24,680 nt of DNA from the NCBI GenBank assembly GCA_947476855.1, contig CANJSR010000014.1, positions 1 to 24,680 of the forward strand. Reading direction: 5' to 3'. The stretch comes from Acetobacteraceae bacterium. Lineage in GTDB: Bacteria > Pseudomonadota > Alphaproteobacteria > Acetobacterales > Acetobacteraceae. Shown here one piece after another: positions 17,619 to 24,389 of the stretch (within the stretch, counting starts at the first letter, position 1; each line of letters opens with the position of its first letter). Position numbers and translations under genes: made by a program. Below the pieces are notes generated by a model. That model was given only the letters and a program-made list of their open reading frames with translations. It had not been told where the DNA came from and did no database searches.

Positions 17619-18779
17619 CTACTCCTCGCCGGCCTTGCGGAACGGGGACCATTCGCTCAGCGCGGCCATTTCCTGGAGGACATGGGCGCGTTCCTCCTCC
17701 AGGAAGTTCTCGACCCCGCGGCGCAGACCGCCGTGCTCGATCCAGTGCGCCGAGTAGGTGGGCTTCGGCAGATAGCCGCGCTGGATCTTGTGCTTGCCCT
17801 GCGCCCCGGCCTCGACCCGTTGCAGGCCGTGTTCGATGGCCCAGTCGATGGCGCGGTAGTAGCAGAGTTCGAAATGCAGGAACGGCCAGTCGCCGCGGCA
17901 GCCCCAGTTGCGGCCGTACAGCGCCTCATCCCCCGCCAGGTTCAGAGCGCCGGCGACGGGGCGTCCATCGGCTTCGGCGTACATCAGCACGACCCGGTCG
18001 CCGAGGCGTTCGCCGAGCAGCGAGAAGAAGGAGCGGGTCAGATAGGCGGACCCCCATTTGCGATCGACCGTGGACTGGTAGAACGAATAGAACGCGTCCC
18101 AGTGCCGCTCCTTGATGTCCGCGCCGGACAGGGCCTGGAAGGTCAGGCCGGCGGCGTTGGCATCGCGCCGTTCCCGTCGCAGGACCTTGCGCTTGCGGGA
18201 CGACAATGCGCCCAGGAAATCGTCGAAGCAGGTGTAGCCGTTGTTCTCCCAATGGAACTGCGTGCCGATGCGGCGCAGCCAGCCGGCCTCGCCCAGGCCT
18301 TCCCATTCGTCTTCCTGGCAGAACGTGACGTGGACGGAGGAGAGCTTATGCGCCTCACACGCCTGGCGCAGCGCGTTGGCGATGGTGCCGAAGCCGACGC
18401 CCGAGCCGGGGCGGCGCAGCAGTCTGGGGCCGGGGACGGGGCTGAACGGAGAGGCCACCTGGAACTTCGGGTAGTAGTCGCCGCCCGCCCGTTCCAGCGC
18501 GTTCGCCCAGCCATGGTCGAAGACGTATTCGCCGTAGCTGTGGGATTTCGCGTACATCGGGATGGCCGCGACCATCGTTCCGGACTCGTCGCGCAGCACC
18601 GCGTGCTGGGGCATCCAGCCGGTGCGGGAACTGGCCGATCCGCTGTCTTCCATCGCGCTGAGGAAGGCGTGGCAGACGAAGGGGTTCCCCGGGCCGGCGC
18701 AGGCGTCCCACTCGGCCGCGTCGATCTCGGCGATCTTCGCGTGCAGCGACATCGTCAATGTGGCGGAACCGTCGGGCAT
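17619..18779 (-). CDS. FemAB-like (DUF482) GNAT acyltransferase
   Basis: A 386-residue protein of the DUF482/FemAB_like family, often labelled peptidogalycan biosynthesis protein. It is expected to have two GNAT folds in tandem. Recognisable parts are the N-terminal NPFVCHAFLSAMEDSGS (about 32-48), the central KFQVASPFSPVPGPRLL, the FLGALSSRKRKVLRRERR stretch near 185-205, and the C-terminal HFELCYYRAIDWAIEHGLQRVEAGAQGKHKIQRGY that is diagnostic of the family. It probably transfers an aminoacyl or acyl group, but neither donor nor acceptor is known. First gene of the minus-strand operon, facing the inverted repeat at 18852-18972. Confidence 0.92.
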   Translation of the reverse strand: MPDGSATLTMSLHAKIAEIDAAEWDACAGPGNPFVCHAFLSAMEDSGSASSRTGWMPQHAVLRDESGTMVAAIPMYAKSHSYGEYVFDHGWANALERAGGDYYPKFQVASPFSPVPGPRLLRRPGSGVGFGTIANALRQACEAHKLSSVHVTFCQEDEWEGLGEAGWLRRIGTQFHWENNGYTCFDDFLGALSSRKRKVLRRERRDANAAGLTFQALSGADIKERHWDAFYSFYQSTVDRKWGSAYLTRSFFSLLGERLGDRVVLMYAEADGRPVAGALNLAGDEALYGRNWGCRGDWPFLHFELCYYRAIDWAIEHGLQRVEAGAQGKHKIQRGYLPKPTYSAHWIEHGGLRRGVENFLEEERAHVLQEMAALSEWSPFRKAGEE

Positions 18780-19012: not shown

Positions 19013-20344
19013 TCAGACGAAGCCTTCCAGTTCGTCCTGTGCCCAATCCGTCACCTCCTTGATCGACTGTCCGCTTTGCAGCCGCGCGAGGATGCCGGGA
19101 TGGACGCCGCGGCTGTAGACCTGCACCGCGATGTCGGGCGGGGCCGGCTGCGCCGTGATCGAGGGCTGGGCGTTGTGCCAGGGGCGGATCGGATAGTTGT
19201 AGATCGTGCCGGCCGGCGGGCCGACCTTCGACCAGACGTCGAAATCGGACATGCTGACGAAGGGCGGCAGGTCATAACCCTCGGACACCGCGCAGCGTTC
19301 GGCGACCTGGGGGCGTTCCTGCAAATGGCGCACCAGGTCCTTGGCCGCGCTCTTGTTCGGGCTGAATTCCCAGACTGTGTAGAAGGTGAAGCTCCAGGGG
19401 ATGAAGCGGCCGGTGGGGCCTTTCGGCATCGGAAAGGTCCAGCAATCCTCGGCGATCGCCGGCGCGTCGCGCTTGGCCACCGCCCAGGCCGACGGCGGGT
19501 TCATGATCAGCGGGCTCTTGCCCGAGATCAGCGCGCGGTTATTGGAGGCATCGTCGTAGGTCTTGGCATCCGCCGGCAGCACCTTGACCAGGCGCTGGGC
19601 GTATTCGAGGAATTTCTGCACCTTGTCGGAGCGGACCTGGATCTTGCCCTCGGAATCGATCAGTTCGGCGCCGAACGCCGCGTACCAGGCGCCGGTATTG
19701 TTGATCGAGTCGTTGGTGGAACCGATGCCGAGGGCGAAGGGCATGCCTGCCTTATGGCAGGCCTCGGCCGCCTTCAGGAAGGCGTCATAGTCCCAGGCCT
19801 GCCCGATCTCCTTGTCAGATGGTTTCGCCGGATACATCTCCCTTATGTCGATCCCGGCGTGCTGCTTCAGCAGGCTGATGCGGCCGCAGAAGGTCAGGTT
19901 CAGCGATCCGGTGCTGGACGGTACCGCGACCCAGTGGTTCTTGACCTTGCCCAGATAGCTGTAGGCCGGGGCATAGGGGCCGTATTGTTTCTGCAGGTGC
20001 TCGACGATGTCGTCCATCGGCTCCATCCGGTCCGCGAGGTTGCGGACTTCCCAGTTGGAGACGGGCAGGATGTCGTGTCCCTTGCGGGCCTGGTACTCGG
20101 CCTGCTGGGTCAGGATCAGCTTCTGGCCGACCGAGGTGATGAAGTCGATATTGACCTCCACCTTGTTCTTTTCGGCCCATTCGCCGACCTGCTTGCGCAT
20201 GGTGGCGTTGGTGGCGGGCACCCAGTGGTCCCAGAACCCCAGATTGAGCTTTCCTGCGGCCCCCGCGGTGCGGATATGCACCAGGGGCAAGGCGGCGCCC
20301 GCCATCATGGCGGCACGACGCGTGATGCGACGTTGGTTTCTCAT
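19013..20344 (-). CDS. Extracellular solute-binding protein (ABC type), Tat-like signal
   Basis: A 443-residue periplasmic binding protein of extracellular solute-binding family 1, of the sort used for sugars, glycerol phosphates and other polyols. The N-terminus MRNQRRITRRAAMMAGAALPL carries a twin-arginine motif (TRRAAMM) ahead of a hydrophobic stretch and a cleavage near AAG (about 30), so Tat export is likely. The mature part begins KLNLGFWDHWVPATNATM, and the family pattern continues with HDILPVSNWEVRNLADRMEPMDD. No permease or ATPase gene lies within the window, so it looks like an orphan component. A hairpin cluster at 20403-20454 precedes the gene. Ligand unknown. Confidence 0.9.
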   Translation of the reverse strand: MRNQRRITRRAAMMAGAALPLVHIRTAGAAGKLNLGFWDHWVPATNATMRKQVGEWAEKNKVEVNIDFITSVGQKLILTQQAEYQARKGHDILPVSNWEVRNLADRMEPMDDIVEHLQKQYGPYAPAYSYLGKVKNHWVAVPSSTGSLNLTFCGRISLLKQHAGIDIREMYPAKPSDKEIGQAWDYDAFLKAAEACHKAGMPFALGIGSTNDSINNTGAWYAAFGAELIDSEGKIQVRSDKVQKFLEYAQRLVKVLPADAKTYDDASNNRALISGKSPLIMNPPSAWAVAKRDAPAIAEDCWTFPMPKGPTGRFIPWSFTFYTVWEFSPNKSAAKDLVRHLQERPQVAERCAVSEGYDLPPFVSMSDFDVWSKVGPPAGTIYNYPIRPWHNAQPSITAQPAPPDIAVQVYSRGVHPGILARLQSGQSIKEVTDWAQDELEGFV

Positions 20345-20529: not shown

Positions 20530-20997
20530 TCAGGCGATTTCGAACATGCCCTCGACCTCGACCGCCGCGTCGGCGGGCAGGGACGGCACGCCGATCGTTG
20601 TTCTGGCGTGACGGCCGGCTTCGCCGAAGACGGCAACCGCGAGGTCGGAGGCACCGTTCATTACCTGGGCATGATCGCGGAAATCCGACGGCGCGGCGAT
20701 GAAGCCGCCGAGGCGCACGACGCGGCGGACGCGGTCGAGGTCACCGCCGCAGGCCGCCTTCAGATGCACCAGCAGGTTGATGAAACACAGGCGCGCGGCG
20801 TCCTTGGCCTTGTCGGCGGAAACGCCCCAGCTCACCTTGCCGGCTACCGCCACCTGGCCGTCGACCGCCGGCAACTGGCCCGAGATCACGACGAGGTTGC
20901 CGGTCACGACATAGGGCACGTAGTTGGCGATGGGTGCCATGGGGCGGGGTAGGGTGATGCCCAGTTCCGCCAGGCGAGTTTCGACCTGTCCGGCCAT
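20530..20997 (-). CDS. RidA-family protein
   Basis: A 155-residue member of the YjgF/YER057c/UK114 (Rid) family, whose best-studied members deaminate reactive enamine/imine intermediates. The N-terminus is about 25 residues longer than RidA of E. coli, as in the YjgF_1 subgroup. Recognisable parts are YVVTGNLVVISGQLP (27-45), ARLCFINLLVHLKAA with the helix, and the C-terminal HARTTIGVPSLPADAAVEVEGMFEIA. The active-site arginine (HAR) and the late acidic residue are present, so imine deamination is possible. ATG 20997 has an AAGGA site about 8 bases upstream. The solute-binding protein gene follows on the same strand after 185 bp, but with hairpins between. Confidence 0.93.
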   Translation of the reverse strand: MAGQVETRLAELGITLPRPMAPIANYVPYVVTGNLVVISGQLPAVDGQVAVAGKVSWGVSADKAKDAARLCFINLLVHLKAACGGDLDRVRRVVRLGGFIAAPSDFRDHAQVMNGASDLAVAVFGEAGRHARTTIGVPSLPADAAVEVEGMFEIA

Positions 20998-21181: not shown

Positions 21182-22675
21182 CTACTTCCCTACCACCCGG
21201 AACCCACGACGGCGGGCACGAGGAGAGCCCTCGGCCGGCAGGTCCATCGGCAGCAAGGGGGAGGTATCGCCGGCGATGTCCGTCTCCTCCATCTCCGGGT
21301 CCGGCAAATCGCGCCGTCCCAGGTAGTTCGCGGCCAGATGGCGGACCGTGTAGTCGATCAGCGACGACGCCTTGCGGACGGCGGGATCGCCCTCCACCGC
21401 GCCGGCGGGGCCGAAGCGGGTCAGGGTGAAGGCCTCCACGAAGGAGTCGAGCGGCACGCCGTGCTGCAACCCGATGCTGACCGAGACCGCGAAGCTGTCC
21501 ATCAGGCCGCGGAAGGCGGTGCTTTCCTTCAGCAGCGCGATCGAGATTTCACCCAGGCTGCCGTCATCATACTCCCCGGTGCGGAGGAAGATGCGGTGCC
21601 CGCCGACCATCGCCCGCTGGGTATAGCCGGTGCGCCGGCCCGGCAGGTCGCGTCGGGTGGCACGCGGGGCCGGACCATCCAGCGCCACGGGGCGCGGCGG
21701 CATCACGTGCAGGAAGGGTGCGACCGCGTCATGCATCGCGACATGGGCCTGTGCGCCGGAGACGGGCAGGGGGCTTCCCCCGGCCAGCACCATCGCCAGT
21801 GCCTCCTCGGCGGTCAGCCCGCTGACGGCGAGCCAGGCGCGCGTCGCCTTGCTCAGCCCGCCAGTCGGCCCCAGCGGCGAGAAGGCGGGCGCGATTCCGC
21901 CGGTCTCTACGCCCAGCAGCGCGTCAACGGGGCCGGGGGGAAGGATCGCGGTCGTCATGCGGTGGCGGGGCATGCCGGCCTGTTCGGCGGCGGCGCGGGC
22001 GGCCCGGGCGGCCTCGGCCAGGCCGGACAGCGCGGTCTGGGCGGGCGGTTCGGGCCAGTCCAGCGCGACGCGGGGCGCCGATCCGTCATGCGCCGATGCC
22101 GCGTCGGCGCGACCGCGCAGGATGGTGGCCAAGGCGCGGGCGATGTCGCGGGCGGCGGCGGACCCGTGGTCAATGCCGAGCGCGGCGAGGAGGCCGAAGA
22201 GGTCGGCCATCGCGATATGGAGGACGCGGTTGGCGGGGGCGGCCAGCGTCAGGGCATGGACCGCGGTCTCCACCGCCTCGGCGAAGTCGGCGGCGTCGAA
22301 ATGCCCGCCGCTGTCGAGGAAGGCCGGCAGGTTGAGCACGAAGCCCGCGCCTTCCTCCGGCCGGCCGATCCACACGGTCTCGGTTGGCGCACCGCGGCGC
22401 AGCAGCAGCAGGCGGTGCAGGCGTTCGGCCATCGGCAGGCCCAGGCCCGAGTCGCGGGCGGCCCGCTCGATCGGATCGATCCAGGCATGGGCGGCGGTCG
22501 CCAGCTGGATTCGGCGCGCGGGCGGTGTCGCCTCGGCCGCCAGCGCCGCGAGACCGGCCGCGGCCGTATCGTCCCACGCCGTGGGCAGGGTCACGAGGCA
22601 GGGGGTCTCATCCGGATCGGCGCCGACGGCGATCTGCCGCATGCGGACGCCGTGCCATGTGCGATGGGTCTTCAT
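21182..22675 (-). CDS. Degenerate NrdJ paralogue with TSCPD domain
   Basis: A 497-residue protein corresponding to the second half of the B12-dependent (class II) ribonucleotide reductase NrdJ. Residues 112-190 follow NrdJ's region around its SCNLASLNL motif, here [16 protein letters not shown] without the cysteine. Residues 238-268 follow the APTGTIG loop region, here [17 protein letters not shown]. Residues 344-457 are a well kept TSCPD domain: [51 protein letters not shown]. Only one cysteine (Cys26) is present, and the C-terminal Cys pair of NrdJ is absent, so it cannot do radical reduction alone. It may be a regulatory or scaffold subunit, distantly like the split NrdJb of Pseudomonas. 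The N-terminal 100 residues are not recognised. It is divergent from the NDUFA12-like gene. Confidence 0.85.
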
Positions 22676-22846
22676 GCCGGCATGCTAGGCCGAGGCATGG
22701 GGCCCGGAAAGCACATTTTGCGGTCCGGGTGTCCCCGACACACAAAATCCTGTGGATAGTCGAGTCGAACCGGCGCTCAGCCTGGATCACGGAGGTTCAC
22801 ACCGGGGCGGTGGACCTCGGCCGGCAAGACGCGTATAGGAAGCGTC

Positions 22847-23203
22847 ATGAATATCGGAACCTGGCTCTACACAAAGCTCAAGGGCCGTCAGGTCGGCACC
22901 GACATGATGGGCAATACCTACTACGAGGAGCGGAAGCCGAATCCCGGCTATGGCCGCACCCGTCGGTGGGTGATCTACGCCCGCGCCGCGGAAGCGAGCG
23001 AGGTGCCGCCCGAGTGGCATTCCTGGCTGCACTACACCACTGACGCCCCCTTGGCCGTCACGGGGCGGAAGCAGTGGCAGAAGCCGCACCAGTCCAACGC
23101 GACCGGCACGCCGTCCAGCTATCGTCCGCCCGGGCACGATTACCAGGGTGGCCAGCGCGCTCGCGCTACAGGCGACTACGAAGCCTGGACCCCCGGCGCC
23201 TAG
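22847..23203 (+). CDS. NADH:ubiquinone oxidoreductase accessory subunit, NDUFA12 family
   Basis: A 118-residue homologue of mitochondrial complex I subunit NDUFA12 (B17.2), found in alphaproteobacteria. Signature parts are the N-terminal GTWLYTKLKGRQVGTDMMGN, YYEERK, RRWVIYARAAEASEVPPEWHSWLHYT and a C-terminal proline- and glycine-rich tail (TPSSYRPPGHDYQGG). It attaches to the outside of the hydrophilic arm of complex I at a late stage. An AGGA site lies 7 bases ahead of ATG 22847. First gene of a plus-strand operon; mlaD follows after 9 bp. The pairing of this gene with mlaD is known from alphaproteobacterial genomes. Confidence 0.96.
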   Translation: MNIGTWLYTKLKGRQVGTDMMGNTYYEERKPNPGYGRTRRWVIYARAAEASEVPPEWHSWLHYTTDAPLAVTGRKQWQKPHQSNATGTPSSYRPPGHDYQGGQRARATGDYEAWTPGA

Positions 23204-23212
23204 GCCCCATCG

Positions 23213-23710
23213 ATGGCGCAGCGCCGCGGCGTCGCGGAAATTCTGACCGGCGCGGCCGTCCTTGCGGTCGCCGTCGGCTTCCTCGTCTATGCGGTGTCGC
23301 ATTCTGGCCAGACCACCACCGCCGGCTATACCCTCCAGGCACGGTTTGAGCGGATTGATGGCCTCGCCATCGGGTCCGACGTCCGTATCGCCGGGGTTAA
23401 GGTCGGCACGGTGACCGAGGCACGGATCGACCCCAAGGATTTCATCGCCGTCGTATCCATGTCGGTCCGGCCGGACATCCAGTTGCCCAAGGACACCTCG
23501 GCCGAGATCACCAGCGAGAGCCTTCTCGGCGGCAAATACCTGTCGCTGTCGCCGGGCGGGGACGATACGATCCTGAAGCCTGGGCAGACGATCACGATCA
23601 CCCAGTCCTCGATCAGCCTTGAACAACTCCTCGGCAAGTTCATCTTCAACCTGACAACCGTCAGCAAGCCCGCCGACGCGGCGCCCTCGACGGATGGAGC
23701 GTTGAAATGA
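23213..23710 (+). CDS. mlaD: MlaD-type lipid transport protein (MCE domain)
   Basis: A 165-residue inner-membrane-anchored MCE protein, which forms a hexameric ring in the periplasm for phospholipid transport between membranes. One N-terminal membrane helix lies at about residues 9-29 (ILTGAAVLAVAVGFLVYAV). The MCE domain covers about 36-115: YTLQARFERIDGLAIGSDVRIAGVKVG and ITSESLLGGKYLSLSPGG. A short helical C-terminus follows (LEQLLGKFIFNL), the part that lines the central pore in E. coli MlaD. MlaE/MlaF are not in the window. The stop overlaps the start of the next gene (ATGA). Confidence 0.95.
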   Translation: MAQRRGVAEILTGAAVLAVAVGFLVYAVSHSGQTTTAGYTLQARFERIDGLAIGSDVRIAGVKVGTVTEARIDPKDFIAVVSMSVRPDIQLPKDTSAEITSESLLGGKYLSLSPGGDDTILKPGQTITITQSSISLEQLLGKFIFNLTTVSKPADAAPSTDGALK

Positions 23711-23928
23711 TCCCACCACCCCCCGCCGCCTGGCCCGGTCTCGACGGCAACGGTGTCGGCTGCCGGGAGAAGATCCGGGTCCTGAACGAAAACCACGCCG
23801 AGGTCGCGCAGGTCCTGCGCGACGCCTTCGACGACGCCGTGCTGATGGGTGTGGATGAAGCCGCGATGCGGGACATCCTGCTGGGCATGGTCCAGGGCCT
23901 CGAGTCGCCCAAGCGCGCGGTGCGATGA
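23707..23928 (+). CDS. Small hypothetical protein between mlaD and a DUF2155 gene
   Basis: A 73-residue protein whose start overlaps the mlaD stop and whose stop overlaps the next start, both as ATGA. That coupling makes it a convincing gene. After a proline-rich start (MIPPPPAAWPGLDGNG) comes a Cys19-containing turn and a helical region with CREKIRVLNENHAEVAQVL, then DAFDDAVLMGVDEAAMRDIL, rich in acidic residues and with two amphipathic helices. No signal peptide or membrane helix, so cytoplasmic. I do not recognise a characterised family; position suggests a role with lipid transport or envelope upkeep. Confidence 0.85.
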   Translation: MIPPPPAAWPGLDGNGVGCREKIRVLNENHAEVAQVLRDAFDDAVLMGVDEAAMRDILLGMVQGLESPKRAVR

Positions 23929-24389
23929 AAGCGCTTCCCGCGGCGGCGTTCCTGGCCCTGGCGCTGTCCGGTCTGGCGCATGCACAGGGCCCCATCGTCG
24001 CCACCCCGCTCCCGCCGCTCGACGCGCAAGGGACCGAAACGGGCACCGAGGTCCCGCCGGCGGCCATGTCCCGTGCGGCTTCCTTTCCCAATGTCTGGCA
24101 GCAGCGGCAGGGTGCCACGGTCCAGGCGCTCGACAAGATCAACGCCCGGCATGCCGAGTTGACGCTGCGCCTTGGCGTGCCGGTGAAGTTTCATGCCCTG
24201 ACGATCATGCTCAAGGCCTGCGTCGTGCGCCCGCCGGACCAGCCGGCCGATGCCGCGGCCTTCCTCTCGGTGACCGATGGCGCCGACAACTCCCAGGCCT
24301 TCAACGGCTGGATGGTGCGGTCGGCGCCGGCCGTCTCGATGTTGCAGCATCCGGTCTATGATCTGCGGGTGATGGGATGCACCCCATGA
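23925..24389 (+). CDS. DUF2155 family periplasmic protein
   Basis: A 154-residue exported protein. The signal peptide MKALPAAAFLALALSGLAHA ends at residue 20. The DUF2155 core spans about 63-152: GATVQALDKINARHAELTLR, FHALTIMLKACVVRPP with Cys99, then AFLSVTD, FNGWMVRSAPAVSMLQHPVYDLRVMGC with Cys152. The two cysteines probably form a disulfide. Family function is not established, but it is widely found beside mlaD or complex I accessory genes in alphaproteobacteria. It overlaps both neighbours by 4 bp. Confidence 0.95.
   Translation: MKALPAAAFLALALSGLAHAQGPIVATPLPPLDAQGTETGTEVPPAAMSRAASFPNVWQQRQGATVQALDKINARHAELTLRLGVPVKFHALTIMLKACVVRPPDQPADAAAFLSVTDGADNSQAFNGWMVRSAPAVSMLQHPVYDLRVMGCTP

Follow-up and report, generated by a model that had tools for sequence, protein, structure and literature searches.

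Within a window of 24,680 nucleotides from an Acetobacteraceae bacterium (the whole stretch analysed, positions 1 to 24,680 of the forward strand of contig CANJSR010000014.1, assembly GCA_947476855.1), a gene on the minus strand encodes a protein derived from NrdJ, the class II ribonucleotide reductase (RNR). The gene is almost certainly an nrdJ that was eroded in place, is under selection and has a non-catalytic product. The wider account, in which the eroded NrdJ was remade as a non-catalytic interaction module, perhaps tied to class I RNR, we regard as having an even chance of being right.

An NrdJ protein without its catalytic motifs

The frame of 497 amino acids (aa) plus stop opens with an ATG at 22675, and its stop codon ends at 21182. 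The alphaproteobacterial NrdJ model NF005736 matched the protein with an E value of 4.7e-56 (190.1 bits, below the equivalog cut-off of 1737), and the Pfam TSCPD domain (PF12637) was found at residues 354-448 with 27.6 bits, above the gathering score of 22.8. PxACFI, NPCSE, TACNLAS and APTGTI, which we take to be the catalytic motifs of class II NrdJ, were looked for by eye and none was found in the window protein; likewise, NPCSE, PxACFI and APTGTI matched none of 51 Acetobacteraceae relatives. A single cysteine is left among the 497 residues, at residue 26. The protein keeps the part of NrdJ that corresponds to the C-terminal region (CRD, 150-220 aa) of class II RNRs, but the six conserved cysteines, or zinc tail, of that region are absent. 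Since the catalytic motifs are gone, the protein should be incapable of ribonucleotide reduction, judging by its sequence, and cysteine-mediated electron transfer by it is ruled out. An initial annotation, made from the sequence alone, had described an NrdJ derivative with one cysteine that lost its catalytic motifs and kept TSCPD, and the profile matches bear this out. Its suggestion of a new nucleotide-binding protein finds no support, as the APTGTI loop has degenerated and no C-site motif is left.

Full alphaproteobacterial NrdJ (PRK07562/NF005736; R. sphaeroides 7b9p/7b9q) shares with the window protein the orthologous slot, the order of segments 113-497, the TSCPD domain, the C-terminal peptide and the NrdJ-like fold of window residues 2-334. 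The window protein differs in missing about 700 residues, the C-site cysteine motif, NPCSE, an intact APTGTI loop and the zinc/cysteine tail. By profile alignment, its C-terminal peptide (residues 473-497) corresponds to the GFVR peptide found after TSCPD in the full enzyme. Residues 1-112 are probably what is left of the N-terminal region of NrdJ, a placement that relies on structural alignment together with a weak link by way of an 801-aa relative and is contradicted at low confidence by the profile alignment. The AlphaFold model of the protein has a mean predicted local distance difference test (pLDDT) score of 91. The 801-aa relative (L062:5666-8068, genome G036) is an Acetobacteraceae form in the same slot, with more of the barrel preserved and two tandem RidA frames downstream; it is possibly an intermediate.

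The gene occupies the nrdJ slot

Of twenty NrdJ loci fetched from across the class, two (L186, L188) turned out to be eroded, leaving 18 of full length. NDUFA12 lies near 14 of these 18; RidA and the FemAB-like gene are likewise present in two (L194, L200), and RidA in a third (L203). The same genes surround the short form in the Acetobacteraceae (Table 1), which places the short protein in the nrdJ slot, the window protein lying at the locus orthologous to that of class II NrdJ. Divergent nrdJ (full or eroded) and NDUFA12 genes are neighbours in most of the alphaproteobacterial loci fetched (e.g. L191, L200, L230), a pairing that may reflect shared regulation or function.

Selection and conservation in the Acetobacteraceae

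Against the nearest relative, UBA6159, the window gene shows a nonsynonymous rate (dN) of 0.010 and a synonymous rate (dS) of 0.141, giving a dN/dS of 0.073, in agreement with the initial annotation's view that it is likely under selection. Across 180 listed pairs at 72-98% identity, which are non-independent and include some places fetched twice, dN/dS ranges from 0.05 to 0.36; the C-terminal 165 residues are usually the slowest to change, and the body is constrained too. A profile of the short form matched 117 of 120 Acetobacteraceae genomes and 89 of 91 genera, the genomes having been requested at a completeness of at least 90% (one at 64%, G001, is among them). Acidocella aminolytica (L173) and Acidocella facilis (L172), acidophilic and non-pathogenic, are among the relatives with the gene. 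No match was found in three of the 120 (G058, G120, G062), and matches were partial or odd in a further three (G042, G111, G087). In genus g58, where the short form has no match, NDUFA12, MlaD and DUF2155 remain, and the adjoining 1.4 kb seen holds no remnant. Stops or frame changes interrupt the gene in small genomes (G112 and one of two G119 copies), and in G028 the matched region contains one stop.

Which reductase the Acetobacteraceae have

Class I NrdB was found in 113 of the 120 Acetobacteraceae genomes, and full NrdJ scored over the cut-off in only two (G049 and G114, genus g49), both of which also keep the short form. Nineteen genomes scored over the cut-off of the class II model TIGR02504, G049 and G114 among them; G012 is a false case, its match being a class I subunit according to TIGR02506. 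The proposal that the short protein is a regulatory or assembly partner of full NrdJ, with such paralogues always accompanying the full-length enzyme, does not survive the comparison of 2/120 with 117/120 genomes.

Neither NrdA nor NrdB was found in the two g49 genomes. Their full NrdJ genes (loci L184, L185) lie outside the old slot and group with family f49 in the TSCPD tree (support 97/94); therefore they were probably acquired horizontally, and the genus has probably reverted from a class I to a class II RNR. As the source of this full NrdJ, a duplication in the stem lineage of the Acetobacteraceae is disfavoured by the grouping with f49, a grouping with the Acetobacteraceae forms being rejected by an approximately unbiased (AU) test made after the first tree had been seen (p-AU 0.024). 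Between G049 and G114 the short protein is 53% identical, against 75% for the neighbours NDUFA12 and MlaD. Among 137 pairs with like neighbour identity it averages 70% (standard deviation 7) with none below the G049-G114 value, which is also the lowest residual of 5778 pairs. The dN/dS of this pair is 0.36 for the short protein and 0.15 for their full NrdJ. One reading of the faster change, a signal from this single genus, is relaxation once NrdAB had gone; G069 and several fast short proteins in genomes with ordinary NrdB, described below, speak against it.

Eroded NrdJ in other alphaproteobacterial families

TSCPD was found in 262 of 387 alphaproteobacterial genomes, 239 with a full NrdJ match and 23 without; the 23 comprise five Acetobacteraceae and 18 genomes from nine other families. 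Full NrdJ here means a best E value printed as 0 (237 of the 387 genomes scored over the curated cut-off), and the counts derive from hand-compiled per-genome lists in which 14 weak TSCPD and five weak NrdB rows were counted as negative. All 18 non-Acetobacteraceae loci were fetched, and one with many N (L226) was excluded when motifs were counted. None of the four catalytic motifs occurs in the 17 readable loci, nor in the 801-aa Acetobacteraceae form, whilst all four are present in each of the 18 full NrdJ loci to which this check was confined. A CxxC..CxxC tail survives in 8 of 18 eroded rows, made up of the 17 readable loci and the 801-aa form. NDUFA12 adjoins 17 of the 18 loci, even in SAR11-type genomes of 1.2 Mb; the five loci fetched from the latter showed neither RidA nor the FemAB-like gene.

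The eroded forms range widely. At one end is a 1229-aa frame, near full length and without motifs, in G151; the protein of that frame (L188) starts near residue 109, and the locus was first sorted as full by its length, then moved to the eroded set on account of its missing motifs. Other frames are of 667-1089 aa, and in families f8 and f83 the smallest forms consist of TSCPD only, at about 280-300 aa. Family f83 is SAR11, its nearest named database proteins being 'ribonucleotide reductase' of Candidatus Pelagibacter and of a Pelagibacteraceae bacterium. Pairwise dN/dS is 0.02, 0.06 and 0.15 in SAR11, 0.08 in f8 and 0.07 in f126, with 0.55 for an f52 pair at 51% identity. The mirror image of SAR11 is seen in Acetobacteraceae genus g42, whose slot proteins (L208:5889-7535 of G111 and L209:5704-7164 of G042) consist of an NrdJ-like body without recognisable TSCPD. 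One genome (G304) holds a second eroded copy, near-identical by eye and cut by the end of a 6.3 kb contig (L236:3-2294, contig C13), which is either an assembly duplicate or real.

NrdB was found in 22 of the 23 genomes with eroded NrdJ, compared with 93 of the 239 with full NrdJ (Fisher p = 6e-8, or 3e-6 without Acetobacteraceae; descriptive only, the genomes being related).

TSCPD trees were built, one of 87 rows and one of 46 rows and 120 columns; the latter omits the long-branch rows L235 and L062 (the 801-aa form) and 39 of the 51 other Acetobacteraceae rows, those kept being hand-picked. A single origin of all eroded forms is not rejected by the 46-row tree (p-AU 0.41), whose alignment is too short for that, and therefore we claim no number of independent erosions from it. 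The missing segments differ: the motifs are wanting at near full length in L188, NrdJ residues 182-499 are gone in L205, and the C-terminal part only is left in f8 and f83. These differences argue for several separate erosions.

Possible roles of the retained protein

An Acetobacteraceae ancestor would have come to make its deoxyribonucleoside triphosphates (dNTPs) by class I NrdAB, and NrdJ may have been stripped by internal deletion and substitution to a compact, well-folded remainder ending in the TSCPD (IscU-like) domain. Most likely this remainder would work as a non-catalytic protein-interaction module, TSCPD being kept for binding a partner, because the domain belongs to the C-terminal region involved in oligomerisation in full NrdJ. 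That region takes part in both oligomerisation and electron transfer, and in Stackebrandtia NrdJ the C-terminal domain drives higher oligomers, according to passages of PMC5704485. An IscU-like domain is described in the C-termini of long class II RNRs in passages of PMC9669993, which state that it has no reported role and suggest oligomerisation. The domain retained here resembles it in position, in its alpha+beta fold and in giving weak IscU matches (with a TSCPD-only model of mean pLDDT 64, about 90 in the domain core). It differs in that the domain treated in those passages is part of class II RNRs and NrdJb, whereas here it persists without an RNR.

As for the partner, the homologous barrel of class I NrdA seems the likeliest candidate, and the protein could then modulate the assembly or activity of NrdAB in trans, though we judge this somewhat likelier to be wrong than right. 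Class I NrdA lacks the ATP-cone in 11 of 11 eroded-NrdJ genomes scanned (the only two controls were picked for a different NrdB type), which makes such a trans-acting modulator an attractive conjecture. Viral RNR large subunits offer examples of a side job, such as BORF2 of Epstein-Barr virus, in which an RNR large-subunit fold regulates another protein.

Several observations weigh against a link between the eroded protein and class I RNR, or against TSCPD as its essential part. Three Acetobacteraceae genomes have no short-form match. In g42 the body is selected (dN/dS 0.23) without a recognisable TSCPD, and therefore TSCPD is not the only selected part. In G453 (93% complete) NrdJ is eroded and no NrdB was seen. 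Neither NrdA nor NrdB was seen in G069 (100% complete, 180 contigs), where the short protein ranks 50th of 108 in rate and is thus average. Ordinary NrdB is present in the genomes of several fast short proteins (e.g. L058 of G102, L056 of G004). Moreover, of the 106 genomes that have NrdB but lack full NrdJ, 84 are without TSCPD (82 of 104 without G198 and G302, which match the NrdJ model at an E value of 0), and therefore NrdAB has no general need of TSCPD.

An alternative is that TSCPD has an ancient second role independent of ribonucleotide reduction, in full and eroded NrdJ alike, with the NDUFA12 neighbour pointing to respiration or complex I biogenesis. In its favour are the 17 of 18 eroded loci with NDUFA12, including the SAR11-type loci in which RidA and the FemAB-like gene were not found, the selection on TSCPD-only proteins in SAR11, and a fold whose model bears a weak likeness to IscU, with an IscU-like domain described in passages of PMC9669993. 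We consider it unlikely, if well worth entertaining. The narrower form, in which an RNR-independent function of the TSCPD/IscU-like domain was kept as the enzyme was dismantled and a link to respiratory complex I is suggested by the almost invariable head-to-head arrangement with NDUFA12, is a shade more doubtful still.

It is improbable that the protein serves as an oligomerisation or structural protein on the inherited NrdJ scaffold with no link to dNTPs. The joint constraint on body and TSCPD would suit this, as would the behaviour of the Stackebrandtia domain in passages of PMC5704485; however, SAR11 and f8 have lost the body, and hence a scaffold is not needed everywhere.

A split NrdJ, in which the window protein is the TSCPD or NrdJb-like half and another gene encodes the catalytic half, is very improbable. 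The precedent is NrdJb of Pseudomonas aeruginosa, which passages of PMC4520616 and PMC9669993 describe as a separate chain carrying the C-terminal NrdJ region with TSCPD and, in PMC4520616, as performing disulfide exchange for NrdJa. The initial annotation had drawn this analogy; the domain fits, but the biology differs, as NrdJb works with NrdJa and the window protein has neither redox cysteines nor an NrdJa within the window. Nor did the first 500 residues of NrdJ match any other open frame of the window, and the same search of 119 short-form loci returned a separate RNR frame in only one (L182:110-2434, Acidocella sp. STC_51; 775 aa, 3.6 kb from the short form). Body segments are also kept in eroded form, the zinc tail and the cysteine pair are wanting, and most genomes, with full NrdJ in two and TIGR02504 in 19, hold no candidate body.

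Lastly, a decaying pseudogene still open by chance, which the interrupted copies and the three genomes without a match might suggest, has a negligible probability given the dN/dS values, the matches in 89 genera and the confident structural model; the homologues are not all decaying, though some small-genome copies are interrupted.

Returning to an eroded NrdJ kept as an interaction module, its parts are known; the repeated stripping of NrdJ with retention of TSCPD is, as far as could be seen, new. The literature library searched yielded no account of NrdJ erosion in the Acetobacteraceae or SAR11, nor of a TSCPD domain kept without a reductase. The reductase has been removed and an IscU-like domain, which has no reported role according to PMC9669993, kept under selection across a family and in streamlined SAR11; this natural loss of the reductase around TSCPD makes the question of the domain's role directly testable. 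If the second function is real, the Acetobacteraceae, SAR11 and eight further families would be natural separation-of-function strains. For annotation, a TSCPD match or a 'ribonucleotide reductase' label need not mean B12-dependent dNTP synthesis, and mislabelled eroded NrdJ bears on the predicted need for B12.

Features of the window

Coordinates are collected in Table 1. A frame on the plus strand overlapping the eroded gene (21338-22759) is most likely an antisense shadow. Across the short-form loci that have it downstream, RidA follows the eroded gene on the same strand at a median gap of 38 bp.

Table 1. Features of the window and occurrence of neighbouring genes. Neighbour names are from Pfam; only 108 of the 119 short-form loci differ over the last 150 residues (some places were fetched twice), and these are counted as distinct.
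Feature	Position	Strand	Basis or occurrence
Eroded nrdJ gene, 497 aa plus stop	21182..22675	-	frame, profile matches
Residues 1-112, probably NrdJ N-terminal remnant; family motif W.GVRMRR..A.ADPD..PR.V.LP..W	22340..22675	-	structure
Residues 113-337, shrunken second half of NrdJ barrel, beginning right after the lost NPCSE finger loop	21665..22339	-	profile alignment
Residues 338-465, TSCPD (IscU-like) domain; Pfam core 354-448	21281..21664	-	
Residues 473-497, conserved C-terminal peptide LLP.DLP...R.RRR..R.V	21185..21259	-	
NDUFA12 (complex I accessory subunit), divergent, upstream	22847..23203	+	110/119 short-form loci; 99/108 distinct
MlaD-domain protein, conserved neighbour	23213..23710	+	112/119; 101/108 distinct
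DUF2155 protein, conserved neighbour	23925..24389	+	107/119; 97/108 distinct
RidA/YjgF family protein, downstream	20530..20997	-	99/119; 89/108 distinct
FemAB-like/GNAT protein (PF04339), next conserved downstream gene	17619..18779	-	80/119; 71/108 distinct

Between RidA and the FemAB-like gene the window holds a gene for a solute-binding protein (19013-20344), an arrangement found in 2 of the 119 loci (L104, L123).
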